From a virus, in the IMG/VR virus record IMGVR_UViG_3300033999_000083, positions 1-64,000 of that record: DNA of 64,000 bases, one strand, 5' to 3'. Of this stretch, positions 15,385 to 61,323 are shown piece by piece. A program made the position numbers and the translations under genes. The first letter of the stretch is position 1. Each line of letters opens with the position of its first letter. The notes under the pieces were generated by a model that did no database searches, was not told where the DNA came from, and worked only from the letters and a program-made list of their open reading frames with translations.

Positions 15385-15457
15385 TGCGAGGTGGACTGGA
15401 GAGGTTCCAGCTCAGTCCCATAAGCTGAATGACGTAGGTTCGAGTCCTACCCTCGCA
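15385..15457 (+). tRNA. tRNA-Met (CAT)
   Basis: Acceptor TGCGAGG/CCTCGCA (7 bp), D stem CTGG/CCAG, anticodon stem TCAGT/GCTGA around loop CCCATAA with anticodon CAT, T arm GTAGG-TTCGAGT-CCTAC. CCA is not encoded. Two extra bases precede the D stem. The sequence resembles Met tRNAs; whether initiator or elongator is unclear. Confidence 0.8.
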
Positions 15458-18104: not shown

Positions 18105-18380
18105 ATGAGACAAGTAGTTGGTAATATTGATGGTAATGATGTAATATATAATACAGAAGACGAAACTGTTTTTTGTAAAAATACCGAATTACCTTATAAA
18201 TTGCTTAAAAAGGTTTTTGATAGCAGTTTAAATAGAGTTAAAATAAAAGATGATTTATACTATATAGATCACGGTTTTAACATGTCTATTGGATGTCTAA
18301 AATTAGACAAAAATGAATATAAAGAGATGATTAATAATATTGAAAAGATTAAATTAAATTATGGAAAGAGAAATCACTAA
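18105..18380 (+). CDS. Hypothetical small protein
   Basis: 91 residues, overlaps the following ATPase gene by 20 bp. No motif recognised. Confidence 0.5.
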   Translation: MRQVVGNIDGNDVIYNTEDETVFCKNTELPYKLLKKVFDSSLNRVKIKDDLYYIDHGFNMSIGCLKLDKNEYKEMINNIEKIKLNYGKRNH

Positions 18381-20131
18381 TTCAAAGATTCACACTCAAA
18401 TTAAATCTTACGAACAAAGACAAAAAGAAAAACTTGTAGAACTTGGTCAATCAAATAAAAGCTATAAAAATATTTTAGCTTATTTGGAGGCTGAAATCAA
18501 GCAATCTACTAAAATTTCAACATTTAACTACAAAATTAAATGTTTTAAAGATGATGGAGTATATCAACTAAATAGAGCTATAGAAGAAATCTATGGTTCT
18601 GTAAGTTTTAAGAAAGATGAAAGTCCTTCAGGAGGATCTGACTCTATTCAAACTATAGATATAACTTTAGCATCTGGAGAAAGAATTAAAACTTTGTTTG
18701 GTAAGATAGCTTTACCAGAAGCAGGAGAAGGAGCCTACATTGATATATCTTATGATAGTGCGAATGATACTTTGCATGTTGTAGGCAACTGCGAATTCAG
18801 ATTTTCAAGTATGATTGATGAGATTGTTAAAAGAGCAGAAAAACTCTTGAAAACTGATTCAATCTATAAGGATCAAGCTATTGAGTTAGATGAATCTTTT
18901 TCACCAAGAATAATGGATTTAACTTCATATACTAAAGAGTTTGTTGTTCTTAGTAGCCAAACTAAGTATGAATTACAACCATTAATGAATAGGATATTTG
19001 ATCCTGCAAAATGTAAGGCAAAAGGTATTCCACTTAAACTGGGAGTGCTCTTAGATGGCCCATACGGTTGGTAGTTTAATATTATATATAAATATTTAAC
19101 TTAAACAGCCCTTATGCGAGGTAACTCGTATTAAGAATTCTAGTGAATTGCTGGAAAATCCTTAGAGCTATATAGACTACAACATAGATAGTAATATCAA
19201 GTGTGAATGTTTAAAAACTATATAGATTGGAAAATCAGCAGCGAAGCTTCTTATAAATAAGAAGAACGTTCAACGACTATCCCTGAAATGGGAGTACACT
19301 CAAATGAGTGGAAGTACTAGACATCCTTATAGGATGAAGATATAGTCTGGTCTTTATAGAAATATAAAGAAGTTCATAAGAGAACTGCATAAGAGTAATG
19401 AACTTATGTGAACAACAACGACAGGAAAAACTTTATTAGCATTTAAACTAGCAGCAGATGCTATTAAAAACAATTGGAGTTTTATTTATCTTAAAGAACC
19501 TAGTTATTTAGCAAGAACTTTAAGATTAGCAAAAACCCTTGATCAAAATGGCAATGGTGTAATAATTTTCTTAGAGGATCTTGATCAAATAACTAGAGGA
19601 GAAAGAGATGCTGCTATGCAGGACATCTTAAATACCTTAGATGGTGGAGATACTAAGAGTATGAATGTAATCTCAATATTTACTACTAATCATCTAGAAC
19701 TAATTGAACCAACATTCTTAAGAGGAAAAAGAATTGGTTCTCTTATCTCACTTGGTTTCTTGGATAAAGAAACTGCTCTGGAATATATCACCACAACTTT
19801 TGAACGTGATGGTTACAGAGTAGATAATAATGGGATGGATAAAGTATGTAAACTTATTGAAGAAAGTAACATAGCTCCTGCTTTTATGGCAGAAATATGT
19901 GAATCTGTTAAATCTCATGTACTATATGAAGATGATGTAATTATCAAACCAGAGTATATTGAGAATGCAGTAAAATCTTATTTAAGGCAAGTTAATATTG
20001 CTAAGAAGAAAGATATGTCTGAAACAGATGAATCTCGCCTTGCTGATTCTTTAAGAAAGATTATTAATAAAGATTTAATGAAATTACTTGAAGAACAGAA
20101 ACAATTTATTGAAGAACGTTTTGGAGAATGA
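18361..20131 (+). CDS. AAA+ ATPase, split by a group I intron
   Basis: Joining 18361-19068 to 19421-20131 gives a 472-residue protein in frame. The junction falls inside Walker A: DGPYG from exon 1 and TGKT from exon 2 make GPYGTGKT. Walker B is VIIFLEDLDQ, sensor 1 ISIFTTNH, arginine finger region RGKR, then a C-terminal helical lid. This is the FtsH/BCS1-like AAA class. A role in remodelling or proteolysis partner work is inference. The stop is TGA, two codons before TAG. Confidence 0.8.
19069..19420 (+). ncRNA. Group I intron without ORF, in AAA+ gene
   Basis: 352 nt. Contains the four conserved group I elements in order: P (AATTGCTGGAAAA near 19143), Q (AATCAGCAGC near 19226), R (GTTCAACGACTA near 19268) and S (AAGATATAGTCTG near 19337). 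It starts after a U of the upstream exon and ends in G, and removal restores Walker A exactly. No endonuclease gene, so it depends on others for mobility or has lost its own. Confidence 0.85.
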
Positions 20132-22035: not shown

Positions 22036-22368
22036 ATGTCAATGTTTGATACAATAGAAGTTCCAAAAGAATTTCTACCATTACCTAACAACTTTATAAA
22101 AACACTTCCAGATGTTATTAGTTTTCAAACAAGAGATTTAGGAGAGAATTTAGATACTTATATAGTAGATGATACTGCGCAATTAATAGAATATGTTATT
22201 AATAGTGAGGGTACTACCTACTATTCTAATTATGACTATGATGGGTATGTATTATTTTATGGATATATAAATGAAACAATGTATGAATTTAAAGCTAATT
22301 TTTCTAATGGTAAACTGATATCTGTAGTAAATTCCGATAACACTATTAAAACAATAATAATTTTATAA
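22036..22368 (+). CDS. Hypothetical protein
   Basis: 110 residues, beginning MSMFDTIEVPKEFLPLP and then DVISFQTRDLGENLDTYIV. The MFD.I......P.......FQT(K)(D/S)L...L..Y.(I/V) pattern is common in small phage proteins. Function unknown. Overlaps RNase H start by one base. Confidence 0.55.
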   Translation: MSMFDTIEVPKEFLPLPNNFIKTLPDVISFQTRDLGENLDTYIVDDTAQLIEYVINSEGTTYYSNYDYDGYVLFYGYINETMYEFKANFSNGKLISVVNSDNTIKTIIIL

Positions 22369-22778
22369 TGTATATAATTTATACTGATGGAGCTTGTAAA
22401 AGTTCTAATAAAACTGGAGGATGGGCTTTTGTAGTAATCAAAGATGATAAAAAGATTTATTTTGATTTTAACTCAGAAGACGACACAACAAATAATCGCA
22501 TGGAAATAACAGCTTGTATCAAAGCTCTTGAATATTGTATTGATAATAATATAAAAGAAGTGGTGATTCAAACTGATTCCATGTATGTAATTGGTACTAT
22601 TAAATATGGTTGGAAAAGAAATGTTAATAATGATTTATGGCCAGTATTAAGTAGTATGTGTAATCGTGTTAGAGTGGTATGGCAACATGTTAAAGGACAT
22701 AATGGAGATAAATATAATTCTCTTTGTGATTCTTTAGCTTCTGTTGCAAGTAATTATAAAAAAATAAAGAAAGTATGA
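22368..22778 (+). CDS. rnhA: Ribonuclease H (type I)
   Basis: 136 residues. IYTDGACK (first Asp), NNRMEI (Glu), QTDSMYV (second Asp), HVKGHNGD (His loop) and SLCDSLA (final Asp) are the RNase HI catalytic set. Removes RNA primers at the replication fork. Ends TGA-TAA, overlapping the protease gene. Confidence 0.9.
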   Translation: MYIIYTDGACKSSNKTGGWAFVVIKDDKKIYFDFNSEDDTTNNRMEITACIKALEYCIDNNIKEVVIQTDSMYVIGTIKYGWKRNVNNDLWPVLSSMCNRVRVVWQHVKGHNGDKYNSLCDSLASVASNYKKIKKV

Positions 22779-23338
22779 TAAGAACAATCGTAGAAGAGAG
22801 GACTAAGAATATAGCAGTTATGGATGTATTTTCCAAATTAGCCCAAAATAGAATTGTATATATAGATGGCCCTATAGACGATGAATTGGCTAATGGAGTT
22901 ATATCTCAACTACTATATTTAGATTCTCTTAATAATAATGAAATATCTATTTATATAAACTCTTATGGAGGTTATATATATGATGGGTTAGGTATTATAG
23001 ATGCTATGAATTTAATTAAAAGTCCTGTAAAAACAGTTTGTATAGGAAAAGCTATGAGTATGGCAGCTATAATTTTAATTTGTGGTAAGACTAGATATGC
23101 CACAGAAAATGCAACAATAATGTTACATGAACCTTCTGGAGGTACAATAGGTACATTTAGAGAAGTAGAAACTACTTATAAGGAAATAGAGAGAACAAAA
23201 AACATACTCTATGGTATTATTAGGAAAAAAACAAATATTTCTGACCCAGAAGATATTTTAGATAGAGATGTATATTATACACCAATAGATGCTAAAAAGT
23301 TAAACATAATAGATGAGATTTTAATTGGAGAATTCTAA
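22775..23338 (+). CDS. clpP: ClpP-like serine protease
   Basis: 187 residues, the usual ClpP length. VYIDGPIDDELA, ISIYINSYGG (oxyanion strand), GKAMSMAAII (catalytic Ser), ATIMLHEPSGG (catalytic His) and a C-terminal RDVYYTPIDAKKLNIIDEIL (Asp region). The AAA+ ATPases in the window could be unfoldase partners (speculation; no IGF/LGF-type docking loop checked). Alternatively it is a prohead-type protease, but its place in the early strand argues against that. Confidence 0.85.
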   Translation: MIRTIVEERTKNIAVMDVFSKLAQNRIVYIDGPIDDELANGVISQLLYLDSLNNNEISIYINSYGGYIYDGLGIIDAMNLIKSPVKTVCIGKAMSMAAIILICGKTRYATENATIMLHEPSGGTIGTFREVETTYKEIERTKNILYGIIRKKTNISDPEDILDRDVYYTPIDAKKLNIIDEILIGEF

Positions 23339-23648
23339 ATTGATTTATATAAAAGATGATGAAGTTGTATATGCAGGAAACTCATTTATATATGAAGTAA
23401 GTGTATATAATTATTTTAAAAATTATTTTTCATTAGTTAAAACAACTTTATATGAATCAAAGATTCCAATAAAACATACAATTAGATCATTTTTTATAAA
23501 CAAGTACACAGAGATATGTTGTGATTTATATCAAGCACCTCTGGAATATTTAATTGATAATAATTATGAGTCGCAAGCAAACTTTAATAAGCGAAAAATT
23601 AAGCACAATGCTAGTAAAACAACTAGCTCACGAACTAAAAAATTATAA
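23325..23648 (+). CDS. Hypothetical protein
   Basis: 107 residues, basic, Tyr-rich. Overlaps ClpP by 14 bp and the ferritin gene by 83 bp, which is a long overlap for this genome. Function unknown. Confidence 0.45.
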   Translation: MENSKLIYIKDDEVVYAGNSFIYEVSVYNYFKNYFSLVKTTLYESKIPIKHTIRSFFINKYTEICCDLYQAPLEYLIDNNYESQANFNKRKIKHNASKTTSSRTKKL

Positions 23649-24069
23649 TCTGTATAAAACTTTTGCAAACTATTTTGATGTGGAAGGTGTAGTTGATTTA
23701 GCAGAATACTATAGTAAGAGGGCTGATGAAGAATTCAAACACCAAGATTGGATATATAAATACTTAACTGATGCTGATATAGTATTTCAATATCCAGCCA
23801 TAGAAGCTAATAATTATGTAGTAAAAAACTATGTAGAACCTTTTCAGTTAACTGTGGATAGAGAAATTGAAACTACTGATGGGATTTATAAAATTTATGA
23901 AGAAGCTCAGATGGAAAAGGATTATATGACAGTAGTATGGTTACAACAACATCTTGTTCCAGAACAAATAGAAGAAGAAAATACTAGTAGGATGGCATTA
24001 GTTATAATGGAAGAAGATGCAGATTTATATATTAAAGCAGAACGTGTTCTACATTTACTTGATAAATAA
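23566..24069 (+). CDS. ftn: Ferritin-like diiron protein
   Basis: 167 residues, bacterial ferritin (FtnA) length. Aligning by eye to FtnA, the ferroxidase ligands are present: Glu in HELKNYNLY (helix A), EE..H in ADEEFKHQD (helix B), Glu in VDREIETT (helix C) and Q..E in PEQIEEE (helix D). ALVIMEEDADLYIKAERVL closes it. It would oxidise and store iron. Start chosen at MSRKQTL; an in-frame ATG 12 bp upstream also exists. Confidence 0.85.
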   Translation: MSRKQTLISEKLSTMLVKQLAHELKNYNLYKTFANYFDVEGVVDLAEYYSKRADEEFKHQDWIYKYLTDADIVFQYPAIEANNYVVKNYVEPFQLTVDREIETTDGIYKIYEEAQMEKDYMTVVWLQQHLVPEQIEEENTSRMALVIMEEDADLYIKAERVLHLLDK

Positions 24070-24248
24070 TGATTTTTTTGGTTCTAAATAAAGAAACTGA
24101 CGAATTAGTAGAAGTTCTTAAAGATCCTACTAAAGAATATTTGGAAAAATACACAGAAGAACACCCAAACGTATATATACGAGATGAAAATTACTTAATA
24201 GATAAACAATTTTATGAAGATGGTATAGACTACAATGATCTATGGTAG
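24069..24248 (+). CDS. Small acidic protein
   Basis: 59 codons from an ATG that overlaps the ferritin stop by one base, to TAG. Begins MIFLVLNKETDELVEVLKD. Phage-like codon use. Unknown. Confidence 0.5.
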   Translation: MIFLVLNKETDELVEVLKDPTKEYLEKYTEEHPNVYIRDENYLIDKQFYEDGIDYNDLW

Positions 24249-24541
24249 AAAAAGTAGAAAGAGTAGAATTAGTAGCAGTAAGGGAAGGATCATATACTAT
24301 CTACGTATTTAAAAAGGTAGAAGACTCTGAATATATTATGTGTACCAGACTTCCTAATTGGAATGTTCCTGATGTGCATATAGGAGAAAAAGGATTTCTA
24401 AATTATCAGATAGTTAAAGCTGGAGAAACATATTATAATCCTTCAATCGATGAAACTGTTAAATATCAATACTCTAATATCTACTTTATCAACTTCATAA
24501 AGGAATCAGATGTAACAGACAACGATAGTATTATAATATGA
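24242..24541 (+). CDS. Hypothetical protein
   Basis: 99 residues. VAVREGSYTIYVFKKVEDSEYIMCTRLPNWNVPDVHIGEKGFL is a beta-rich block of the phage type (Y..YVFKK..D.EYI.CT..PNW....I..G..GF). Ends TGA-TAG in overlap with the next ATG. Function unknown. Confidence 0.55.
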   Translation: MVEKVERVELVAVREGSYTIYVFKKVEDSEYIMCTRLPNWNVPDVHIGEKGFLNYQIVKAGETYYNPSIDETVKYQYSNIYFINFIKESDVTDNDSIII

Positions 24542-25362
24542 TAGAAAAAAGTATAAATCAAGATATAAATTCTTTTACTTGGAAATGGGAAAAAGAGTTA
24601 ACTGATAAAGGAGAGTATAAACAGAAAGAGTGTAAGATGGTTGACATGACTGAGGATGAGCTAAGACTAGCTTATAATCAATGTAAAACTATGTTATATA
24701 ATAGAGATCCTGATAAAAGTGGAAGATATCTAGTACTTGAAAGTATATATGATCAAAGAAATAGATGTGGAGCAGAACTATTCTTACGATATGCCGAAAG
24801 AACAAAAGGCATTAGTAGAATAAGTCTCATAAACTCTATTAATGAATTTATGTTAAATAATAAAGAAGCTCTTGCTAGTATTAAACCAACTTTAGATATA
24901 GCTTTTCAAAACTTACCAGATGAATTTAAAAACATACCACTAGACTTAGTGTTAGATGGCTGTCTGGATAGATTAGGAGCTTTTTCTAAAAAGCATATAA
25001 CAAGAACTTTTATTTTAAAACAGGGGGTTTGGTTAACTCCTGCTGAAGCTATTGACCTTACAGAATTAGATAAGGACAATAAACCTATAAATAAGTTAGA
25101 TGTAATTAGGGAACGTCTAAATATAAAGGAGGTTGAAAAACTATCCCTAAATTCCAAAGGTTTAAGTTATACAGAATTAAGAGCTATGCTTACATTAAGA
25201 CCCAATAAAAAATACAGGGACTTAACTACTGTACAACTAGAAACTTTAAGAAATAAAATTTTATTTATTCTAGAAGAAAATGTTAGGAAACATATAGACT
25301 TCTGGGAAGATAAAATAGATCAAATAGAAAAAGTAGCAAAATACAAAAATATAAAACTTTAA
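24538..25362 (+). CDS. Conserved hypothetical helical protein
   Basis: 274 residues, helical throughout. The central part (LYNRDPDKSGRYLVLESIYDQRNRCGAELFLRY) looks like the best-conserved block. No enzyme motif recognised. It lies just before the DNA polymerase operon and could be a replication accessory (inference). Confidence 0.6.
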   Translation: MIEKSINQDINSFTWKWEKELTDKGEYKQKECKMVDMTEDELRLAYNQCKTMLYNRDPDKSGRYLVLESIYDQRNRCGAELFLRYAERTKGISRISLINSINEFMLNNKEALASIKPTLDIAFQNLPDEFKNIPLDLVLDGCLDRLGAFSKKHITRTFILKQGVWLTPAEAIDLTELDKDNKPINKLDVIRERLNIKEVEKLSLNSKGLSYTELRAMLTLRPNKKYRDLTTVQLETLRNKILFILEENVRKHIDFWEDKIDQIEKVAKYKNIKL

Positions 25363-25624: not shown

Positions 25625-26018
25625 TATAAATGAAAAGAAATTTACTAGTTCTTTAAAGTATATTAAAAAAGTAATTAGTAACATTAGTTCCTACTATGAA
25701 TTACCAGAAGAAGTTAAAAGTATAATTAGTAAAGAAGATTTCGATAATCTGAAACAAATACTAAGAAATAGGTATGAATATTGTATAAAGAAAAAGGTAA
25801 TGATTATTAAAGAAACAACTTTTTTTGTATTTGCAGAAAGTAAAGAAGAAGCTGATAAAAAAGCAATTGAAATTGTTGCAAATAATATTAAAGTTGAGTC
25901 TACTAATATAGTTCTCAGACCTAGTACAATGGAAGATGTACCTCCAAAAGAAGGTGAACCAACAATAGAACTTTACTCAACTTTAGATAGTCAAAATATT
26001 TTATACAAAAATGGATAA
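25617..26018 (+). CDS. Hypothetical small protein
   Basis: 133 residues, overlaps both neighbours by 8 bp. C-terminal half related in pattern to the gene before. Function unknown. Confidence 0.55.
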   Translation: MNNINEKKFTSSLKYIKKVISNISSYYELPEEVKSIISKEDFDNLKQILRNRYEYCIKKKVMIIKETTFFVFAESKEEADKKAIEIVANNIKVESTNIVLRPSTMEDVPPKEGEPTIELYSTLDSQNILYKNG

Positions 26019-29000
26019 ATATTTAATAGAATATGGTTTAGAAAATAAAGATAAAATAATTGAAATTATATACTGTAATCATTATCTAGATGCAATAGAT
26101 ATAGCTCAATCTAGGGCTATAAAGCTTTTAGATGATATTAAAGAATATAAAAACTTAAAAGAAGAAATCTATAAAACTTACAATTATAATCCTTTTACAC
26201 CGTATGCCTATTATTTATCAACTATTTTAAGTCTTATAACATACAGTGTGGAAAAAATAGACAAAGATCAATCTATAATATATTTAGTATCTAATGAAGC
26301 TAGTTTATTTGATAGTAAATTTAAAACTATATCTTTAGATAGGGCTATACAATTACTCAGTGAGTGTGACATTCTAGGATTAGATTCTGAAACTGAAGGG
26401 TTAGATCCCTATACAAAGGCTCTATTGTTACTTCAGATTGGTAATAAAGAATTTCAAGTGGTATTTGATATAGCTAGCTTTGGTGGTATAATACCTAAGA
26501 AGTTAGTTAATTTTTTAAATAACTATCCAAATACTTTTATATTACAGAATGCTAAATTTGATTTAAAATTCTTATTTAAACAAGGGGTAATACTTAAAAG
26601 AGTATTTGATACTATGCTCTGTGAAATAATTCTTACTAATGGATTAGAATATGAAGGTAGGGATTTAAAGAGTTTGGCAAAGAAATATTGTAATGTAGAA
26701 TTAGATAAATCTGTTAGAGGGGAAATTATAAGTAATGGTTTATCTAGTGCTGTAATAGAATATGGAGCTAATGATGTAAAGTATCTTCCAGAAATAAGAG
26801 AGAAACAATTAATAGAAGTTAATAAATACAATCTTAAAGGTGCAGTAGATTTAGATAATACGTTTGTGGTAGTCTTAGCTTATACTGAATATTGCGGTAT
26901 AAAGTTAGATTATGAAAAATGGAAGATAAAAGTATTAAAAAATATAGAGACTGCTGAGAAATATAAAAAAGAATTAGAAGATTATATTTATAACGATAAA
27001 AAATATGAATACTTTTCTGGAATGGTAGATATGTTCACAGGAAAGCAGGAATGTATTATCAATTGGGATTCTCCAAAACAAGTTACTAAACTTCTTAAAG
27101 AGTATGGTGTTAATACTGAAATAGTAATTAAAGGAGAAAAGAAAGAATCTATAGATTCTAAAGTTTTAGAACCTCAACAAGATCAATTTCCTATTATAAA
27201 GCCATATCTTAAATATAAAGAAATGCAAAAAGAAGTTAGTACTTATGGATATAACTGGAAAAACTATATAAATCCTATTACTGGCAGAATACATACTTCT
27301 TTTACCCAAATACTTAACACAGGGCGTATGTCATCTGGAAATAAGTATGAAAACCTTCCCAATATTCAAAACCTACCTCGAGGAGAAGATACTAGGTCTT
27401 GTTTTATAAGTGAACCAGGAAATTTACTAATTGATGCAGACTATGCAAGCCAAGAACAAATAGTCTTAGCTAACTTCTCTAAAGAACCTAATCTTTTAGA
27501 ATTTTATCATAGAGGTTTTCAAGATATGCACAGCTATGTAGCTTTTTTAATGTATAAAGACATTAGGAAATGCACTGTAGAAGAATTAACTCCTGAAAAA
27601 CTTTCATACGTTAAAGAAGAATACTCAGAGAAAAGAAGAATTGCTAAATCTGCTGGATTTGCGATGAACAAACCATTTTATTTAATTTAGGTGTAACTGA
27701 ACTTAAAAATAAAAAATTTGCCATTAACTACTAATTTATGACAAAACTTTTTATTATATTTGTGTGTAATTAAAATACATAAATATGGATAAAAATAAAA
27801 TAAATGAACTATTAGAAGATTATTCTTCTGGAATGTCTTTAAAAGACATTAAAAGTAAATACCAGACTAGTTCTGATACAATTTATAAATTAGTAGATGC
27901 TAATGGCATAAATAGAAAGAATTATAAAAATTTAGATAAATTTTATGACTTAAATAATCCTGAAACACAATATTGGCTAGGATATATATGTGCAGATGGA
28001 AATATTCAATACGATATTGTTAAAAGAATATATAAAGTATCTTTGTTTAGTAAGGAAGAAGAACCTATCAACAGATTTAAAGAGTATTTTGGAAATATGG
28101 TATGTATTCATAGAAGACCTACAGGTATCATTGAAGCATACATAAATTCTAAAAAATTATGTGAATACTTTATAAATGTTCTAAACATACTTCCTAATAA
28201 ATCTTTAATTCTAGATCCTAATTTAGAATTTACAACAAATTTTATATTAGGATATTTTGATGGAGACGGTTCTATAATGAATAGTTCTGAAACTAGAATT
28301 AGATATGAAACTAAAATAACAAGTGGTAGTAAAACCTTTATCAATAAAATATGTAAAATATTAGATAATAAGGGTATCTACTATATACTTAGAGAAAAAA
28401 GCAGTGCTTTTGACATTAGTATTGAGAGAAAAGAAGAGTCTAAAAAATTTTATAATTGAATTTATTCTGAAAAAGTTTGGTGTTTATCACGAAAATTAAA
28501 TAACTTTGTCGCTCTCTTTGGAAACTTAGAGATAAATAATCGGGAGAATTGCGGGGAAATTAATGGACAATCCGCAGCCGAACTATCTGAATAGCATAAA
28601 AGTAAGATAGGAGGTTCAACGACTAACAATTGAGGAGCTAATCCAATAATATTGACACGAGTACCCGACACCTAAGGAGAAATCTATGGTGAAGATATAG
28701 TCTGAGCTATATAGTAATATATAGAAGTAAGTATAAAGAGACTTACGATAACATAACTGAAATTATGGAGGAAATGGTAGTACTATAGCTAAAAATTGTA
28801 ACATAAGCAAAGCAGAAGGAGATTTTGTATATAATTCATATTTTGAAGCCTTCCCTAAACTCAAAGATTATTTTGATCTAATGTTTAGAAAATCAGCTTA
28901 TTCTGGATATATAGAGTATAATCATGTAACTAAAAGAAAATATTTCTTTAATAAAGAAACCAATGATTATTACAGATATAAAGATATAGTAGAAAAGAAT

Positions 29001-30397
29001 CTACTTTATGAAGAAGACAACCCAAGAGATGTTATATCTAAATATAATAGAGCTAAAAATGAGATACAACGCCTATCTCAAAACTATCCTATAATTGAAT
29101 GGGACTTTATACAGTAATGTATATCGAAAATTGGGTGAATTGCTGGAAACCTAAGTATTATTAAATATAAGGCAATCAGCAGCCAAGCTAGTGAATATCT
29201 TAATGTAACTAGAAGGTTCAGAGACTAGAGGGTGAGTAGATAAACAATAACCTCTCAAAAAGCGCCCGACAACCAATAAATTGGTTGATAATATAGTCCA
29301 ATCTACATCTAAAGATGTAGCAAGATTTTTTAAAAATTATACATTTTATGTGTTGATAATTTTATATCTTTGTATTATTAATAATTTTAAATACAAAGAA
29401 AATGGAAAAAGTAAAAACATGTAAAATTTGTAATTTGAGTGAACCAGAGGTAGAATTTTATAAGAATTCTGGTTCAAAATGTAAAAAATGTAAAAATAGA
29501 GAAGACAGCAGGAGAAGGGCTGAGAAAGCTGGTAGAGAGTATATTCCTAGAGAAAAAGTAGAAGTACCCGAAGAATATAAACTCTGTACTAAGTGTAAAA
29601 GAGTATTACCTATAGATGATTTTTATGTATTAGGGGCAACTAATAAAGACGGTACTAATAGAATATATTCAAGATGTAAAGAATGTGAAAGACAAATTGT
29701 CTTAGAGCATCCTAACAGAAAAGAATATATTGAGAAATCTAATAAAAATAAGTTAGAAAAATCTCAAGAAGACCCTGATTATAGAGATTATCTAAATGAA
29801 ATAAACAAAAAATATTATCATAGTGAAAAAGGTATAATTGCACACATGCTTTATGAGGCTAAGAAAAGAGCTGCTAAGAAGAATTTAGAGTTTGATCTTA
29901 CAGAAGAAGATATTATATTACCTACACACTGTCCTATTTTAGAAACAGAGTTTGTAAAAGGTGATAGTTCTGATTATTCTATGACATATTCTTTAGATAG
30001 AATAGATAACTCTAAGGGATATGTTAAAGGAAATGTAAGAGTAATTTCTATGTTAGCTAACTCAATGAAGAACTCAGCTACACCAGAACAACTAGAAGCA
30101 TTCTCTAGAAACATTTTAAACTACATTAAAAAATCTTAAATGATTCAAGGCTCTTCAGCAGATATAACTAAGTATGCAGGAATACTATTTATGAGAGAGA
30201 TTCTTAAAAGAGATTGGTTTATGAAAGTAAAAATAGTAAATTTTGTTCATGATGAGATACTAGTTGAAGCTCCTAAAGAGATAGCTGAAGAAGTTAAAGA
30301 TGTTTTAGTAAGTTGCATGGAAGAAGCTGGAAAGCCTTTCTGTAAGATATTACCTTTACATGCTGAAGCATTAATAGGAGATCACTGGGTTCATTAA
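26011..30397 (+). CDS. polA: DNA polymerase family A, split by two group I introns
   Basis: Exons 26011-27665, 28760-29090 and 30143-30397 join to 746 residues in frame. DEDDy exonuclease: LGLDSETEG (about 125), FILQNAKFDLKFL, YGANDVKYL. Polymerase: motif A DADYASQEQ (about 476), O helix KRRIAKSAGFAI|NYGGNG at the first junction, NYP|IQGSSADI at the second, motif C NFVHDEI (about 697). No 5' nuclease domain. The splice sites lie in the two most invariant stretches of the enzyme, as expected for homing introns. Confidence 0.92.
27755..27762 (+). promoter_or_regulatory. Promoter -7 element before intronic endonuclease
   Basis: TATATTTG, an exact TAnnTTTG, lies 22 nt before the ATG of the endonuclease gene. 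No TTTG at ideal distance. It would let the endonuclease be made from its own transcript, not from the pre-mRNA. Confidence 0.45.
27785..28594 (+). CDS. LAGLIDADG homing endonuclease with in-frame TGA
   Basis: N-terminal helix-turn-helix (KDIKSKYQTSSDTIYKLVDANGI), then two LAGLIDADG helices, YWLGYICADGN and FILGYFDGDGS. At 28457-28459 a TGA interrupts a typical C-terminus: ...KKFYN(W)IYSEKVWCLSRKLNNF fits the usual FL.WLY......L.RK...F ending of the family. Read as Trp, the frame continues to TAG at 28592-28594, running into the intron core. If TGA is a stop, the protein is 224 residues and lacks this final helix. Confidence 0.75.
28476..28508 (+). promoter_or_regulatory. Bacteroidota-type promoter inside intron
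   Basis: TTTG (28476-28479), 21-nt spacer, TAACTTTG (28501-28508), a full consensus match. It overlaps the 3' end of the endonuclease frame and would transcribe the intron core and polymerase exon 2. It may be chance. Confidence 0.4.
29365..29372 (+). promoter_or_regulatory. Promoter -7 element before intronic endonuclease
   Basis: TATCTTTG matches TAnnTTTG, 29 nt before the ATG of the second intronic endonuclease. The -33 element is poor. Parallel to the element before the first one. Confidence 0.45.
29402..30139 (+). CDS. HNH/His-Me finger homing endonuclease with zinc ribbons
   Basis: 245 residues. N-terminal CKICNLSE...CKKCK and CTKCK...CKECE knuckles (residues about 6-35 and 60-97), then a nuclease part: HCPILETEF and YSLDRIDNSKGYVKGNVRVIS, the DRID...GY..GNV phage HNH signature, then MLANSMKNSAT. 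It ends 3 nt before the intron end, so coding and splice site nearly meet. Confidence 0.8.
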   Translation: MEKVKTCKICNLSEPEVEFYKNSGSKCKKCKNREDSRRRAEKAGREYIPREKVEVPEEYKLCTKCKRVLPIDDFYVLGATNKDGTNRIYSRCKECERQIVLEHPNRKEYIEKSNKNKLEKSQEDPDYRDYLNEINKKYYHSEKGIIAHMLYEAKKRAAKKNLEFDLTEEDIILPTHCPILETEFVKGDSSDYSMTYSLDRIDNSKGYVKGNVRVISMLANSMKNSATPEQLEAFSRNILNYIKKS

Positions 30398-45512: not shown

Positions 45513-45800
45513 ATGGTAACACTATTTGATGAAAGAGATTTAGTATCATTTGGAGCTTATATGATTTCAGATACAAGAAGAAAATCTATAGAAGAAAATC
45601 CAGATATAAAAAGTCAAGAAGAGATGGATAAAGTATTAAAAATGGTTACTCAATTTGACTTTAATAACTGGCTGACTTTGAAATTAAGATCTGAACAAGA
45701 GGAAAAAGACACAACTTTAGATAATGAAATATCTGATGAAGATATTATAGATGAAGAAGATCATCCTAAAATTGTAAAACTTAATCCTAATAATAATTAA
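45513..45800 (+). CDS. Hypothetical small protein upstream of RNR
   Basis: 95 residues, acidic C-terminus (EISDEDIIDEEDHPK). Its stop overlaps the RNR start by one base, so the two are probably translated together. Function unknown. Confidence 0.55.
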   Translation: MVTLFDERDLVSFGAYMISDTRRKSIEENPDIKSQEEMDKVLKMVTQFDFNNWLTLKLRSEQEEKDTTLDNEISDEDIIDEEDHPKIVKLNPNNN

Positions 45801-48800
45801 TGGAAGATTATTTTAAACATGATGAACTAGCCTATGATGTTTGGAAAGACAAGTATAGACAAGAAGGAGAAAGTTTAGAACAATTTTTTGAAAGACTGGA
45901 AAAAGGGTTTGATAGATCTTTTAGTTATGATAGAAATCTATCAGAGTATGGAAAAAAGAGGCTAAACAATCCATATAGAGAAACCTTACATACTTTATTT
46001 AAAGATTTTAAATATATAATTCCTGGAGGCTCTGTACTATATGGAATAGGTACTGATAAGCCTGTAAGCCTTAGTAATTGCTATGTTCTTAGCACTGAAG
46101 ATTCTATATCAGAAATCTTTGATACAGCTAAATATATGGCTAATATCTATAAAAGAAGAGGAGGAGTTGGAGTAGACATTTCAGTTTTAAGACCTAAAGG
46201 CGCTTCTGTTAATAATGCTGCTAAAACTACTACTGGGATTATACCATTTATGGATTTATTTAGTAATGTAACCAATACAATTGGGCAGAGTGGAAGACGT
46301 AAAACAGATGAAACATTTTTTAATATTGAAAATATACAGAGTAAATATTATGGACGAACAATTTTTAATGGAATGCTTAGAGAAAGGACTAAGTACTAGA
46401 CAAATAGAAGCTCTTCCTGGAGTTAATATAAAGAGAAGTGCTATAAGTTATTGAATTCATAAATATGGTTTAGAAAATGATATGAAATATAAAAAACCTA
46501 TTTACAATGAAAATTACTTTAGTACTATTGACACTAAGGAAAAAGCTTATATTTTAGGATACACTTTAGCAGATGGGTATATTAGTAATTCTGATTTAGT
46601 TTATGGATGTGCTATTGCAGATAAAGAAATACTAGACTTTATAGCCTCAGAAATAGGAGGACAAGTAAGAACTTATACCAAGTTAAATAGAGAATCTAGA
46701 ACATTTCCTAATGCAAAATTGAGTATAGGTAATAGAAAAATAGTAGAAGATATAAATAGGTTATGTAATTCTAAAGAGAATAAAACATTTCCTAGAATAA
46801 GAAAAGATTTACAACCATATATGCTATTAGGTTTTTTTGATGGAGATGGATGTTTAACATTCGGACATAGAAAAGATCGTAATAGATTATGGTATAAAAT
46901 ATGTTTTACAGGTTCTTATAAACTATTATATGCTATACAAAAATTACTTGAAAAGAATAAAGTTGTATCAAGCCTTCACCCTAAAGGTGATGAAAATTGT
47001 TATGTCCTAGAAATGTCATCGAAAGATTCAGTATTAAGAATTTTAAAAGCCATGTATGGTAAAGAAGATTTAATTGTACTGAAAAGAAAATATAATAAAT
47101 ACAATGCGCTGCGTCTTGAATTGGGAGAATTCGGTGAAACTACTATAAATAGTACAATACCGAGCCGAGCTTCAGACCATTCTGAAGAAGGTGTAGAGAC
47201 TACTGGAGGGAAAGAGGATTCCCTTAATAACCAGCTAGAGAACCCAAGTCTTACTATTAAGTAAGATAAGATATAGTCCAAATAAAGGGGCGCATTAATG
47301 ATAACCCTAGATATCAGACATCCTGATTCTCCAGATTTTGCTATTTGTAAAAGGGATTTAACTAAAATAACTGGTGCTAATATATCTTTAAAAGTATCTA
47401 AAGATTTTATATATGCTGTAGAAGGTAATAAAGATTACCTATTAAGATGGCCTGTAGATATAAATATAGATGATATAGATTTAAGTAAATTAGAATATGA
47501 TAAACTATATGAAGTATCTACTAAGAGATATATCAAGAAAATAAAAGCTAAAGAATTATGGGATACTATAATAGAATCTAATTGGCAGTCGGCTGAACCA
47601 GGAATACTTTTCTGGGATAACATTGTAGATTATGATTTAGCTAGTGTATATCCAGAGTATAAACCTATATCAACAAATCCTTGCGGTAGATTTTGCTGCA
47701 AGTAAAAAAATTCGAGAATTGCTGGAAACTTGGGATAGTTATACAACTACAACAAAACTAGAAATGGTATTTGTGAATGTTTGAAAATAGTATAACGTTA
47801 AGTAATCAGCAGCCGAGCTCCTAAGTTATTTATAATATGGAGAAGGTTCACAGACTATGTACGAATCAAAATTAATTTATGAAAACATTTAAAGAAAGGG
47901 CAGAAGAATTAGCCCTATCATGTACAAGAGTTAAAAATAATAATGTTTATGAAACTCTTGCAAAAGAATTTGGAATATGTAAAAGGACAGCTGGAGATAG
48001 GTTTAAGAGCCTATTTGGAATGCCTGTTAGTGAGTTTATTTCTAATAATCTTATTCCTTCAGAAGAAAAGGTAATTGATTGTTTAGTTCAATCAGAAACT
48101 TATAAAGAGTTTTATGATTTAACTGGAATAAATGATAGTGTAAGATTAGCTAATACATTAAAAAAATATTTTGGTACATCAGATTACTATAAATTAAAAG
48201 TATTAGCTTTATCTAAAATACCAAGTAAGAAATATAATCCAACTCCTGAAGATAATGAAGCTATTTTAGTTTCTCAAATGTTAGGAGATGGTTCTATAGA
48301 AAGAGAAAATTCTTTTAAAATAGAACATGGTTATAAACAGTATGAATACTTAAAATTTAAGGTCTCATTATTTAATAAAGCTTACCCTCAAACAAATGGT
48401 TTAGAGAAAATAAGAAAGAGAATATCTAAAGATAATTATGAATCTTATGTTTATAGAACTGGAGAGGTTTTACATAAACAATTATCAAGATTACTACATT
48501 TATCTAAAAAAGATTTAGTAAGTAAATTAACACCTTTTGGAGTTATGCTTTATTTTCTGGATGATGGATATTTTTCTATAAGTAAGGGTAAATATATTAC
48601 TTGGGAATTAGGTTTTAGCACTATAAATACAGAGTTACAAGAAGCTTTGTTTGAGTACTTTAAAACGTATGGATATACTTTTAACATCACTCCTAAAGCT
48701 ATAATCTTACAAAGTAAACCCACTATAATTAAGTTCATAAAAGATTTCTTAGAACCTTTTAAAGATATTATTCCAAAAAGTATGTATTATAAATTTAATT

Positions 48801-50412
48801 TAGAAGATATAGTCGAAATGATTTAATTAAATTTAAATCATAGGAAATTCCACTTAGTGCTTTAGATTCTTGTCGCTTAATTGCAGTTAACTTATATAGT
48901 CTTGTTAAGTATCCTTTTACAAAAGAAGCTTATATAAATGAAGATCTAGCATATACCGTATTTTATGAAGCTCAGGTTATTGCAGATACTCTTGTTGATG
49001 TTGAATTAAAGCATATAAAAAGAATTATAGATCTTAATGATGAGCCTGAACTTTGGAAAAAAGTATATGCTGTAGGAAAAAATGGAAGACGAACAGGTAC
49101 AGGAATAACTGCATTAGGTGACATGTGTGCTGCACTAGGAGTTCCATATGGAGATCCTTCAGTAGTAGAAAGAATAATGCATATAAAATTGCAAGCAGAA
49201 TTAGATGCTTCTATTGATTTAGCAATTACTGATGGGCCTTTTCCAGTTTATAATGGGGCTCTAGAGTATTATTCAGGAGAATATGGACTAGAAGGCGGTA
49301 ACAAGTTGTATGAATTTCTTCTAAAAGAATATCCAGAACAAGTAAGTAAAATGGTGCTGTACGGTCGGAGGAACATTTCAATTAGTACTGTGGCTCCTAC
49401 GGGGTCTCTAAGTATATTAACAGGTACTACTTCTGGTTGTGAACCTGTATTTTCATTATACTACCAAAGAAGGAAGAAATGTAATCCTGGAGAAACTCCT
49501 GATTTTGTAGATCAAAATGGAGTAGGTTTTAAGACTTATATGGTTATTCATCCTAAGTTTAGAGAATGGTATAAAGTAAAATATGGTGAAGAATTAAAAG
49601 ATGAGTCAGTAGAAAATTTGGACAGATTATATAAAGAATCTCCATATTATCTACAAACTGCTAATGATTTAACACCAGAACAAAGAATAGATACGCAAGC
49701 TATTTTACAGAAATATACAACTCATAGTATCAGTTCTACAGTTAATTTACCTGAGAATATAGATAAAGAAACTGTTAATAAGTTGTATATATTAGGTTAT
49801 GAAAAAAACTTAAAAGGTTTAACAACTTATAGAGCTGGAAGTAGATCTGGTATTTTAATTAACATAGAAAGTAAAGATTCTACAAGACCTCCTGAATTAC
49901 CTTGTAAAGTATTAAGATTTAAAAATGAAAAAAAGGATTGGATAGCTTTTATAGGTATAAAAGATGGTAAACCATATGAAATATTCACAGGTATTAATGA
50001 CCTAGATGAATTTCCAATACCATCTTATATAGAAGAAGGTACTATTATAAAAATACCTTCTGAAGGAAAATCTAGATATGATTTTAGGTATGTTGACAAT
50101 TATGGATACTCTAATACATTAGGTGGATTAAATAGAATATTTAATAAAGAGTATTGGAATTATGCCAGGTTTGTATCTGCTTTACTAAGAGAAGGAGTAG
50201 CTTTAGAAAATATTATTCATATTATAGAGAAATTAGAATTTAATAATAAATCTCTAAATTCTTGGCAATATGGAGTTATTAGAGCTATAAAGTCTTTTAT
50301 TGAAGATGGAACAAAGACTGATGAGGTTTGTTCAGAATGCGGAGAAAAAGCTATAGTATATGAAAATGGATGTAAAATCTGCAAGAACTGTGGAAACAGT
50401 AAATGTGGTTAA
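45800..50412 (+). CDS. nrdJ: Class II (B12-dependent) ribonucleotide reductase, two group I introns
   Basis: Exons 45800-46300, 47289-47687 and 48844-50412 give 822 residues in frame. SLSNCYVL has the first redox Cys. RRGGVGVDISVLRPKGA and the rebuilt QSGRR|GALMITLDIRHPD and TNPCG|EIPLSALDSC follow, the latter bearing the radical Cys and NPC.E. STVAPTGSLS is the P(T)GS phosphate loop. A C-terminal zinc/redox tail has CSECG...CKICKNCG. Makes dNTPs using adenosylcobalamin, so no NrdB partner is needed. Confidence 0.9.
46301..47288 (+). mobile_element. Group I intron with LAGLIDADG gene, in nrdJ
   Basis: 988 nt, after exon U (GGAAGACGT), ends in G. R (GGTGTAGAGACTAC near 47192) and S (AAGATATAGTCC near 47268) are clear; P- and Q-like elements (GAATTCGGTGAAACT, AATACCGAGCCGAGC) lie at 47125-47165. 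The endonuclease reading frame covers the P-Q-R region, so the same bases serve protein and ribozyme. Confidence 0.8.
46350..47264 (+). CDS. LAGLIDADG homing endonuclease with in-frame TGA
   Basis: From ATG 46350 with TGA (46452-46454) as Trp: 304 residues. The N-terminus RQIEALPGVNIKRSAISYW|IHKYGL is the helix-turn-helix typical of this type, in which the position read by TGA is the usual Trp (..I.YWL.KYG). Then YILGYTLADGY and MLLGFFDGDGC. Without recoding the first usable ATG is 46482 (260 residues) and the helix-turn-helix is lost. The last 50 residues overlap the intron core. Confidence 0.75.
47688..48843 (+). mobile_element. Group I intron with LAGLIDADG gene, in nrdJ
   Basis: 1156 nt, after exon U (CCTTGCGGT), ends in G. 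P (AATTGCTGGAAACT near 47715), Q (AATCAGCAGC near 47803) and R (GGTTCACAGACTA near 47846) precede the endonuclease. S (GAAGATATAGTCG near 48803) is inside the 3' end of the endonuclease frame. The insertion in NPCG|E sits at the radical-cysteine motif. Confidence 0.85.
47879..48826 (+). CDS. LAGLIDADG homing endonuclease
   Basis: 315 residues. N-terminal DNA-binding part (NVYETLAKEFGICKRTAGDRFKSLFGMP), then SQMLGDGSIE and YFLDDGYFS, the two LAGLIDADG-type helices of the LAGLIDADG_2 kind. Its last residues LEDIVEMI are encoded by the S element of the ribozyme. Standard TAA stop, no internal TGA. Confidence 0.8.
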   Translation: MKTFKERAEELALSCTRVKNNNVYETLAKEFGICKRTAGDRFKSLFGMPVSEFISNNLIPSEEKVIDCLVQSETYKEFYDLTGINDSVRLANTLKKYFGTSDYYKLKVLALSKIPSKKYNPTPEDNEAILVSQMLGDGSIERENSFKIEHGYKQYEYLKFKVSLFNKAYPQTNGLEKIRKRISKDNYESYVYRTGEVLHKQLSRLLHLSKKDLVSKLTPFGVMLYFLDDGYFSISKGKYITWELGFSTINTELQEALFEYFKTYGYTFNITPKAIILQSKPTIIKFIKDFLEPFKDIIPKSMYYKFNLEDIVEMI

Positions 50413-56642: not shown

Positions 56643-56682
56643 AAGCCGAGTACAGAAATTACTGTATTCGGCTTATTTTTTT
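56643..56682. terminator. Bidirectional intrinsic terminator
   Basis: AAGCCGAGTACAG/CTGTATTCGGCTT, 13 bp with one G-T pair, loop AAATTA, flanked by A-runs on the left and T-runs on the right, so it works for both strands. It lies exactly between the convergent early and late blocks and touches the late stop codon. Confidence 0.88.
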
Positions 56683-59600
56683 TATCTTAACATTTCAAAC
56701 ATACCTATAGATTGTGCAGCTGCTTTACCCAAAGTCTTGTCACCTTGAATAACATCTCCTACATTTTGCGTGGCTCCTAAACTCCAACTTAATCATGCTG
56801 GTTCGGAACTTAATGCTCCAAAAGTATTATTTCATAAATTATACTCATTAAGTACTTTTGTATTAACAGCATCCATAAAGGCTACAGTTTCACCACTAAA
56901 AGTACCTCTTTCAGTAGAATCTTTCATTGAGTCGTATATAGCTCTCATAATACCTAATATCATAAAGATCAAAACAGAATCTCCTATAGCATAAAGAGTT
57001 CTATTCACTCTTCATTTATTCTTTTTAAGATCATCCCAGTTTAATCTAACCAAATCATTTATTGTATAAAAGACAGAATAAAATATACCTTCTTGTGGAG
57101 TACCATTTCAAGCCATAAGTTTTTCATCTGTTTCATATTCTACAATTTCTCTTTTTGGAACACCATACTCATCTAATACTGGATCACCATTTTCATCTAC
57201 AACATCTTTAAGATATAAATGTATTGGTTTACCTTTATCATCGAGTATTAGATTGCCATCAGCATCTTTTTTGACTGCATGTTCAAACTTACCTACAGGA
57301 GATGCATCAGCTGATATTGGTTTACCAAATCAAAATTGCATCTTAGATGGCCAATACTGCATAAATTGAAAGAATGCAATTCCTGCTAACTTATTATTAA
57401 TTTGAGCTTGTGCATCTTTATCATATGCTCCATATACTCTATCAGCCATAGCTTTTATTGAGTTTCTTTCTTTAAGAGTATAAGCTTTAGGAATTAAATC
57501 TTTTTCTGTAAGATGACCTTCTCCTACAATAGCATATTCAGAATTAAATTGTTCTATCATTAAAAGATATAGATTTCTTTGCTCATTGTATAAAGAGTCT
57601 CCAGATTTTTTAGTATAATTGCCATCAGCATCCTTATACTTTTCCCTTTCTGCTAAGTAATAGGAAAATCTTTTATCTTTTCTTGGATCATATACTAAAG
57701 TATTTCCTTTCATAGAATGCGCTTCATAAGAACCATCTTTAATCATTCTAGCTAATAATATGGCTAACCTATTAAAGTAATCTCCACCAGTTGATGTAGC
57801 AAACATTCATCTACCTAATCCCCTTGCCAATCCTAATTTATCATGTTGAACTTTTTCTGGCATGGTTGCTATATCCATATTAGCTATTCTATACTCATTA
57901 TTTAATGCCTCTATTAAATTATGTTCTACAGCTTGTTTTAACCCTACAGTTAATAACTTTTCATAAGCCTTTATCATTTCTTTTTCTCCAAAGTCAGCAT
58001 GTATTCCTGTACCAGCAGTAAGTAGATTTCTTATAGTTCCAACAGTTATTTCTTTTACTAACATAGTTGGTCTAAAAGCTAGCATTGCTATAGTAGAAAA
58101 TTTCTTTTGAAAAGCTAATCCTTGAGCTATATTTTTCTCTTCATCATCCACTAATGGTTTACTAAATACTGCTAGGTTTACCTGGTTAACTATATAGTTT
58201 AGTTGCTTCCTAACCTTTTCATCCATCTTTCCTCCCATTAACTTCATTCACCATACATATGATTCAATAGTTGGGAGTATTATATCAAATATTCTTTTTC
58301 TAGTTTTATAAAAAGCTACCTTATGAGCTATAGTATCAAGATTTAGTTCAAAATAATCTATTTGCTCCCTATCCATCATTCTTGCTCTTGTCTCATCATC
58401 TTGACTTCCAAACACATCATACATTTGAAAAAACCCAAGTCTTTGATGTTCTATATTTTCTACATCAAGTGAGGAGAATTCTCTAGGATCTATGGTGTCT
58501 CTTAGATTATCTTTTACCATATTATATCACTCACCAAACCCAGTTACAAGTCTTTTATATTTAGAGATTTCTTCTCTCCTCATAAGTGGCATTTTAAAAT
58601 AATCTCCAGATTCTATTCTAGCTTTTAGTCATTTATTATTAGTAATGTTCTCTAAGTTAGTTGGATCTATAGAATAAATTTCATTTTCTGGTAATCCAGC
58701 CATGAAACCATTTATATAAAGCAATGTTTGTTTTAAATATTTTCTCTGGTCTTCAGTTAAAGCATTTTCTTCATCAATTATATATGGATTTTTAGCTCTA
58801 AAAGATTTATCAATTTTTCCAGTTTCTTTATCCTTTACAAAAAAGTCAGCATGTATAGATTGAGTTTCCCCTCAAGTCATTTGTTTAAACTTACCATATC
58901 CTAGTTTTCTATAAAGTTCATCAGTTAAAGGTCATTGGTGTTCACTAAATTTATTAAGTTTCTGTCCATTTATAGAGTTGCCATTAGCAACCATCTCATT
59001 TATATTCCTTAAGTCTTTGGATTGAACAAATTCTGGATTAATCCAGGATAACCCACCTATTATACCAAGTATTCTATTACCTTTTTTATCATATTTTCTT
59101 TGATTCTTGTTAAGAATACCTAATCACAGAGACTGAAAATCTCCAGCCTCGATACTATATTCTGTTAAACCTTGAAAATCAACTTCAGGTTTTATACCAG
59201 ATTTAGATAATATAGCTGTTTGTAATAAAGCATATAATACTTCTGTTGGATTTTGAAAATCTAGTTCTTTAGTTGGTTCTACATCTCTATATTCAGGAAA
59301 AGCTATTAGAAATTGATCCCTTGCTTCAATTAATCTTTCTCTTGATATTTCGTCAAACCTATTATTTTGCAGTATAGAAAATATATTTTCAACTTCTTTT
59401 TGTCCTTTACCTGCATAGTTTTTTACATAAGTATTTAGAGTCATTAATGCAAGATCTTCTGTTCCTACTAAATCATTGTCATTAATTTTTATTTTATCTC
59501 CCATACCTACTTCATTCATTCTTCTTCTAAACCAAGTAAGAACAGTTGCAGAAGACCTATATCTACTTTTTCCATTCCTACTATTAAAAACTATTATTTC

Positions 59601-61322
59601 TCCTAACTTATAAGCTCCTTTGGCTAAAAGAACATCTTTATATTCATTTAAGAAATACATAGCTTTTAACATTTCTACCTGGTCATAAGTCATTCCTTTA
59701 ATTCCAGATTCTGCTCATAAGTTATGAACTGTAATATCAAATAAATTTATTATTCCAGTTTTAGTATTTCTCATGACAATTATTCCTAAGGCATCAGCTT
59801 CGTTAATACCTTCTAAAACTTGCCAATCATCATTTAAATATTCTGTTAATACGTGGTCTAAAGCTATATCTTTTTTACTTGGATTTTTTCCTAATTTTAT
59901 ACTAGAACCTGTAGCAATAGATGATATTACAGCATTTTTTACTACACTAACACCTCTACCTTCTAATGATTTTACATGATTTACATATAAAGCCATCTTT
60001 TCTCTAAACTTTGCTTCTGCTTCCTCAGCAGTTTGATGTTCAGTAGTTTCTATTATCATCCCTTCTGGTAATCCATCTATATCTTTAAAACCATTATATT
60101 TTTTAAATACTCCAGTTTTTTCAAATCTTTCTCTAGAGTTTTTCATTAATAACTCTAAATCATTATCTTCCCACTCTGTTTTAACTCTGTAATCTGGAAA
60201 CAATAATTTATTCAAAGAATCTTTAAGTGCTGCTATTTTATTTGGATCATACTCAGGTTTAATTTTTCTAGGAAGTAATATCTCAGCAATAGAAGATATT
60301 TGTCTATACTTTTCTAAACCAGAGACTCCTTGAGTAGTTCTGTTTATTGGAGTTCCAAATTTTAAAGTAGTTACATCACCTAACTTACTAAATTCTATAG
60401 GTATTATATAAAGCCTAGTGTTTTCTACATCTATATGTTGTCCTAATAATTGTCTTTCTAGAGCTAGCTCCCAATCATAAGTAAGAGTTTTAGATTCATC
60501 CCAATCACTAAAAGGATGTTTAGATATTTTCACATCATATATACTAGCCACTCCAGAAGTATTAACAGTTACTATACCTAGTTTAGCTTTTAATTGAACA
60601 TTATTTGCTTTATTAGGTAAAGATACTAAATGAATAGAGCGTAAGGGTTCTCCTTCTAAAGAACGTATTATATTACCAATAATAGACTTTATTCTTTCTT
60701 CTCATATAGATATATCTACATCATTACCAAATATCTCTGGATTCTCTGAATAAAATTTTCTAAAATCTTCTTCAAATTTTCCATTATTTGATAAAATCAT
60801 ATCTACTCATTCATGAAACTTAATACTAAAATTTTTAGTCATTTCTTCTATTCTAATCCTACTTTCTACTTCAGCAAGTGCAGGTATTAAGTCTTTATCA
60901 TCGTATTGTTTTAATACAGGATCTCTCTTTAACATCTCTAAATATTCTGGAGTATAGACTGCACCAGTGTTGTTAGTATACTCTTCTAAATGTGCCTTAA
61001 CAAATTCTAGAATTCTATTTTCTTGTATAAATTCTGGAGCTAACCTACTCTGTCCTTTTAGTGCTGCTATATTTCCAAATATTTCAGCATGAGGTTTAGT
61101 AATAAATTCATACACAGTTTCTACATCTGTAGCTTCATAATAAGATTTAGGAGAATTAGCTTTAAGTATTTCTCTTTTAATACTATCTACCACATCTTCA
61201 GAACTAAATATAGAATTTGAAGCTAAAATACTAGTTTCTTTTAGAAAATCTTCATATACAGAACTTTCTAAATCATATCTTATTAATTCACCATTTTCTT
61301 TTTTATAATAAAAGCATCCCAT
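56682..61322 (-). CDS. Giant late protein, TGA read as Trp (15 times)
   Basis: One frame from ATG (MGCFYYKKENG) to TAA gives 1546 residues if TGA is Trp. The TGAs are at 56795, 56834, 57014, 57110, 57332, 57809, 58250, 58529, 58631, 58874, 58934, 59126, 59717, 60704 and 60809 (first base, minus strand). TGG also occurs. Mostly soluble, with one hydrophobic segment near the C-terminus (SVLIFMILGIM). No polymerase DxDGD motif seen. Its place and size match the giant late proteins of crAss-like phages, some linked to the virion-associated RNA polymerase or ejected proteins; exact role unknown. Start overlaps nothing; the upstream gene stops 2 nt earlier. Confidence 0.8.
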
Positions 61323-61323
61323 A

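Follow-up and report, generated by a model that had tools for sequence, protein, structure and literature searches.

A ferritin of the FtnA type in the replication operon of a crAss-like phage

The window analysed here is a 64,000-nucleotide stretch of viral DNA (positions 1 to 64,000 of IMG/VR record IMGVR_UViG_3300033999_000083), part of a linear virus contig of 93,401 bases. Its plus strand carries a ferritin gene, the only copy in the contig (table 1). The preliminary description, made from the sequence without database searches, had reported an FtnA-length phage ferritin at precisely this position; the observation is confirmed, and the reading of the protein as a ferritin is supported. 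The start codon matches the methionine at which homologues begin. The gene had also been placed between ClpP-like and small genes. These neighbours are as described, but a 107-aa open reading frame (ORF), which matched no family in profile searches, intervenes between ClpP and ferritin. A functional tie of ferritin to this overlapping frame is rejected, because the relative L077 retains the frame and has no ferritin. The ClpP-like protease stands outside any capsid module; where the upstream DNA of a close relative is available, the protease is almost always found beside ferritin. Two metallophosphoesterases are recognized upstream of ferritin (Pfam). A search for Bacteroidota-type promoters was uninformative (4 matches, with 3.3 expected).

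Table 1. Positions of the ferritin gene, its ligand codons, neighbouring genes and related genes in comparison records (positions refer to the window unless a record is named).
Feature	Position	Strand	Details
RNase H	22368..22778	+	syntenic; Pfam RNase_H 5.5e-32
ClpP-like protease	22775..23338	+	syntenic; Pfam CLP_protease 9.3e-47
107-aa ORF	23325..23648	+	3' end overlaps ferritin start by 83 nt
Ferritin (FtnA type)	23566..24069	+	167 aa; ATG start, TAA stop; Pfam, PDB, AlphaFold2
E23 codon	23632..23634	+	FtnA E17; diiron ligand; alignments
E55-E56-x-x-H59 codons	23728..23742	+	FtnA E49, E50, H53; site C and diiron; alignments
E100 codon	23863..23865	+	FtnA E94; diiron ligand; alignments
E133-Q134-I-E136-E137 codons	23962..23976	+	FtnA E126, Q127, E129, E130; alignments
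Helix E, the short fifth helix (residues 154-163)	24025..24054	+	AlphaFold2 model
59-aa ORF	24069..24248	+	ATG overlaps ferritin stop (TAATG)
99-aa conserved ORF	24242..24541	+	syntenic
274-aa conserved ORF	24538..25362	+	anchor for ferritin-independent survey
DNA polymerase I, first exon	26011..27690	+	group I introns and homing endonucleases split the gene
Class II (B12-dependent, NrdJ-type) ribonucleotide reductase	45800..50412	+	in pieces
Dps-like protein, crAss001 gp7 'putative DpsA'	L116:4551-5000
Phage-type ferritin in metagenome-assembled genome (MAG) contigs	L033:4968-5525, L034:4414-4971, L035:4968-5525

The assignment of the virus to the crAss-like phages, already made in the preliminary description, is supported by the matches of crAss001 proteins to the record in tblastn searches: DNA polymerase I (PolA, 37%), ribonucleotide reductase (RNR, 38-50%), Sak4 (35%) and primase (25%). 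A dUTPase-like protein is also matched, and the order of the replication genes is common to crAss001. When PolA is searched against GenBank phages, the best rows are mostly crAss-like phages. The crAss001 TerL, portal and capsid proteins have no match in the 93-kb linear record, which may lack that end. The hosts of the ferritin-bearing virus are gut-type bacteria. Both terminal exons of the RNR have NrdJ_Z as their best NCBIfam match, and a ThyX is recognized in the window (Pfam Thy1).

The polymerase gene is interrupted (27691-30139) by group I introns at 28487-28724 and 29081-29320 and by homing endonuclease-like frames at 27785-28459 and 29402-30139. The class II RNR (46400-49122) is split by endonuclease-like frames at 46482-47264 and 47879-48826, seemingly mobile introns too. 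In the window, at 18361-20131, and likewise in its relative L001, an AAA-type ATPase gene is broken into frames of 237 and 171 aa with about 540 bases between them; L011 and L018 have a single intact 467-aa frame. The split is probably an intron, undetected by Rfam. The minus-strand late genes (56682-64000, continuing to record position 91973) are open for 1,400-3,000 codons only when TGA is read through. The largest late frames hold 15, 11 and 8 in-frame TGA codons, and early genes stop at TGA. Such read-through of late genes in crAss-like phages is published (PMC7886860). No opal suppressor is seen among the tRNAs at 15385 and 16621; both were rejected as candidates on their anticodons, read by eye as CAT and GAT, respectively.

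Pfam Ferritin (PF00210) matches the 167-aa frame at 3.1e-18 and 66.5 bits, above the curated cut-off of 24.5, and phrog_16594 matches it at 1.5e-9, as it does all tested IMG/VR ferritins. The best PDB sequence match is the ferritin of Thermotoga maritima (1z4a, E 1.4e-15). The equivalog for E. coli-type non-heme ferritin, NF007638, scores 34.6 bits, well below its cut-off of 178. Judged by sequence, the phage protein is classed as a ferritin, yet one outside the narrow NF007638 group. Its best matches in the NCBIfam and PDB sequence searches are non-heme ferritins, not the bacterioferritin type. Dps is rejected as the closest family, since the top matches in Pfam and in the PDB, by sequence as well as by fold, are ferritins.

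Ligand residues were assigned by alignment with three ferritins, that of T. maritima and two of the Firmicutes type. E23, E56, H59, E100, Q134 and E137 align with the FtnA diiron ligands E17, E50, H53, E94, Q127 and E130; E55, E133 and E136 align with the site-C residues E49, E126 and E129, and Y30 with the conserved Tyr24. Across 24 viral ferritins, with identity to the query down to about 20%, the alignment has only nine invariant columns, all of them among these ten. The exception is E55, replaced by G or D in a few of the 24. Invariance at 133-137 is partly built in, because EQIEE was among the search patterns; L090 and L101, retrieved by a neighbouring gene rather than by the motif, keep the ligand set intact, the EQ..E motif included. 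L031 reads KEQAEEE at the motif and has the same ligand set except at position 55. Relative to bacterial FtnA, helix D of the phage protein carries one extra residue, with a proline, immediately before the EQ..E motif (P-E-Q). The diiron centre, earlier called apparently complete, is indeed so by this measure: all six FtnA ligands are aligned and conserved across viral ferritins.

An AlphaFold2 monomer model, computed from the 24-row alignment of viral ferritins, has a mean pLDDT of 95.4 and a pTM of 0.89. Its helices span residues 10-40, 43-69, 91-116, 120-149 and 154-163, a four-helix bundle with a fifth helix. The best 50 Foldseek matches in the PDB are ferritins only, with TM scores of 0.85-0.87 for T. 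maritima (full-length chains), 0.87-0.88 for E. coli and 0.90 for Helicobacter pylori; the Vibrio cholerae ferritin also reaches 0.90, with an rmsd of 1.6 across 165 columns. Superposition of the model on solved ferritins is almost gapless (Foldseek), the D-E connection and helix E being shorter than in FtnA. A model without the bundle, or with the ligands apart, would have contradicted the earlier reading. The bundle is predicted with high confidence, and the ligands are judged to fall together from near-gapless superposition and conserved columns, not from geometry.

Three IMG/VR scans recover a close set of ferritins at 47-87% identity and other viral ferritins scattered at 20-34%. The close set preserves most of the gene order RNase H - ClpP - 107 aa - ferritin - (59 aa) - 99 aa - 274 aa - PolA or helicase, with identities of 45-60%. 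A matching PolA is absent from three close-set contigs, so ferritin stays despite a different polymerase. In a survey anchored on the 274-aa neighbour, and therefore independent of ferritin itself, 16 of 17 crAss-like relatives carry ferritin in the same slot of the replication operon; the 17 loci are those with a neighbour identity of at least 47% and the upstream stretch present, and two pairs among them look identical at the locus. The one exception, L077, is a close relative cleanly without ferritin in an otherwise whole operon, in which the 107-aa frame is followed by a 75-aa frame and the 99-aa gene. Among relatives with 37-44% neighbour identity, ferritin is present in L101 and absent in L093-L100. 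Whole-record searches of L077, L093, L097 and L099 found no ferritin elsewhere. The gene is therefore dispensable, as L077 and most of the 37-44% relatives lack it. The survey of other crAss-like phages proposed earlier thus finds ferritin in nearly all close relatives and its absence from most of the more distant ones. Iron storage had been called unusual for a lytic-type phage; 'unusual' applies only with a limit, since the gene is nearly fixed in the present clade and other viruses also have ferritins on record.

The distances between ferritins correlate with those between the neighbouring proteins (Mantel r 0.92, p 0.0001, n=16), which indicates that ferritin is mostly inherited together with the operon. 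In the close crAss-like clade it is not stray cargo. The gene is under purifying selection, with a dN/dS of 0.20 between the window and L001 and of 0.033 between L016 and L017. Most flanking genes of the window and L001 are 98-100% identical, and ferritin codons 42-115 have 78% nucleotide identity. This divergent patch, at about 23660-23900, differs from L001 by 22%, and the ligands inside it are unchanged. Allelic exchange, or recombination with a relative's allele, is its likely origin.

Phage-type ferritins also occur in bacterial chromosomes. A genome scan identified three Bacteroidales MAG contigs whose copies have 46-48% identity to the phage protein and all ligands. Two of these (L033, L034) lie in chromosomal surroundings of SusC/SusD-like and GlmS genes; the third (L035) is at a different site, among sugar-nucleotide and glycosyltransferase (polysaccharide) genes. 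No phage genes surround any of them. Against a phage ferritin profile the MAG copies score 197-206 bits; no other ferritin exceeds 87.5 in the comparison, which covered 396 Bacteroidota and 297 same-family genomes. An ordinary FtnA-like ferritin is present in 188 of the 297 same-family genomes; at the cut-off used, no second FtnA-like match was found in the three MAGs, which may be incomplete. The tree groups the phage clade with the MAG copies and two more viral ferritins, separate from bacterial FtnA (100/99). The MAG copies nest inside the phage set with moderate support (91/89), and the AU test is borderline when all phage rows are required to form a single clade (p 0.09; p 0.03 without L101). 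On these grounds no strict claim of phage-to-host transfer is made; the sequences suggest, rather than prove, transfer in that direction as the simpler reading.

The preliminary description had suggested protection against oxidative damage, or the supply or withholding of iron. The reading judged reasonably probable is that the phage makes a catalytically complete FtnA-type ferritin together with its replication proteins, and that this ferritin limits Fenton damage to phage DNA. The proposed course is as follows. (i) Subunits are predicted, with high confidence, to fold as a ferritin bundle. (ii) Fe2+ would be bound at the diiron centre, whose ligands are assigned by alignment. (iii) The bound iron would be oxidized with O2 or H2O2, as expected from established ferritin biochemistry. 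(iv) The ferric mineral would be stored inside a cage, probably a 24-mer. (v) The protein, presumably made early and acting as ferroxidase and iron sink, may thereby remove Fe2+ and peroxide during infection. (vi) Phage proteins and replicating phage DNA would then suffer less Fenton damage, with iron buffering as a possible side benefit. Protection of DNA is favoured because of the replication-gene setting, the B12-dependent RNR and the occurrence of a Dps-like protein in other crAss-like phages. That two branches of a single virus order each have a protein of the ferritin superfamily suggests a need common to both, and the simplest candidate is the shielding of DNA against iron and peroxide.

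The same fold and ferroxidase site would suit iron management, in which ferritin keeps a store of iron for phage or host enzymes needed later, or denies iron to the host, and the giant-virus ferritin has been interpreted in this way (PMC7136201). The nucleotide-synthesis genes of the phage speak against such a role. A class II RNR needs no iron-containing R2 subunit, so the classic iron client is gone; supply of iron to an R2-type enzyme is accordingly unlikely and is set aside. ThyX is a flavin-dependent enzyme, and with a cobalamin-dependent RNR and ThyX the obvious iron client of nucleotide synthesis is missing. Iron management as the main function is therefore doubtful, if still the most credible of the alternatives. 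A more distant prospect is that the protein is a diiron oxidase or peroxidase of ferritin fold without an iron-storing cage. The short helix E, the shortened D-E loop and the proline-bearing insertion in helix D could alter cage contacts, and site-C residue E55 is incompletely conserved in the wider viral set. Sequence and fold are nevertheless most similar to cage-forming ferritins, and the model retains helix E, which makes a non-cage enzyme improbable.

A virion-associated ferritin that brings iron into or onto the host, of the Ferrojan-horse type, has been proposed for a Vi01-like phage, in which mass spectrometry detected the ferritin-like gp217 (PMC10892097). In the present virus the gene belongs to the plus-strand replication operon, away from the minus-strand late block, and TonB or FeoB deficiency of the host made no difference to infection by Vi01-like phages (PMC10892097); a virion role is thus very improbable here. 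Still less credit is due to an assembly artefact, or bacterial DNA misjoined to a phage contig. Such artefacts do exist: ferritin matches in GenBank 'Bacteriophage sp.' contigs proved bacterial by gene content. Two of these (L003, L004) were rejected as bacterial contigs with desulfoferrodoxin-like, thioredoxin-reductase-like and sensor genes. Other viral ferritins also match records named S. aureus 'phage', which carry no annotation. At the present locus, however, more than 12 contigs, obtained from different samples, repeat the gene order with protein identities of 45-60% and co-evolving neighbours, and this recurrent synteny already refutes the artefact.

Iron chemistry is seldom considered in phage infection. 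A selected ferritin between ClpP and replication genes implies that iron or peroxide handling is worth one gene during infection. If protection of phage DNA is the true function, loss or inactivation of ferritin should change DNA damage or yield when iron or oxygen is a stress. The Bacteroidales copies suggest that phage genes enter host iron metabolism. A tentative extension, which we regard as possible and no stronger, is that a crAss-like lineage kept ferritin as a near-core gene of the replication operon, as an alternative to the Dps-like protein, and passed it to Bacteroidales hosts, whose own FtnA it displaced as iron store.

Viral ferritins as such are a known kind, from giant viruses, in which ferritin is reported (PMC7136201), and from annotations in uncultured phages. 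The ferritin family, viruses included, was surveyed in 2015, as cited in PMC11780533. In the open-access literature, the Crassvirales papers PMC7886860, PMC10136315 and PMC12386605 mention neither 'ferritin' nor 'Dps', and the operon-bound crAss-like ferritin appears to be a new viral subfamily, undescribed in the literature searched. With bacterial FtnA (T. maritima 1z4a/1vlg, V. cholerae 3qz3, E. coli 4reu) the phage protein has in common its fold, length, diiron ligands, tyrosine and five helices; it differs in its identity of only about 23-33%, its place in a phage replication operon and its separate clade (100/99). PHROG 16594 (unannotated), BFVD A0A8D9C9X5 from an uncultured marine phage and the giant-virus ferritins likewise have a viral ferritin fold, but they belong to other virus lineages and lie outside crAss-like replication operons, and the nearest BFVD model has about 22% identity. 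The MAG ferritins are of the same subfamily, as their identity and ligands show, and differ in having longer ends and an inserted segment in helix D. The predicted ferritin gp217 of Vi01-like phages, a protein detected by mass spectrometry (PMC10892097), is assigned by Phyre2 only and lies in a tail-gene operon.

Proteins of the Dps family have an intersubunit ferroxidase site and assemble as 12-mers. A Dps-like protein, annotated DpsA, occurs in 49 GenBank records of Bacteroides crAss-like phages; a search of the records that bear ferritin, several of them fragments, did not detect it. That of crAss001, gp7, lies in a tRNA cluster and is weakly Dps-like by sequence (best PDB match a solved Dps, E 0.0097; DUF5856 is also matched). 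Dps and Mn-catalase are reported in Gratiaviridae (PMC8008677). Like the ferritin described here, gp7 and the Gratiaviridae proteins belong to the ferritin superfamily and were recruited by phages of Bacteroidetes, presumably for the handling of iron and peroxide.
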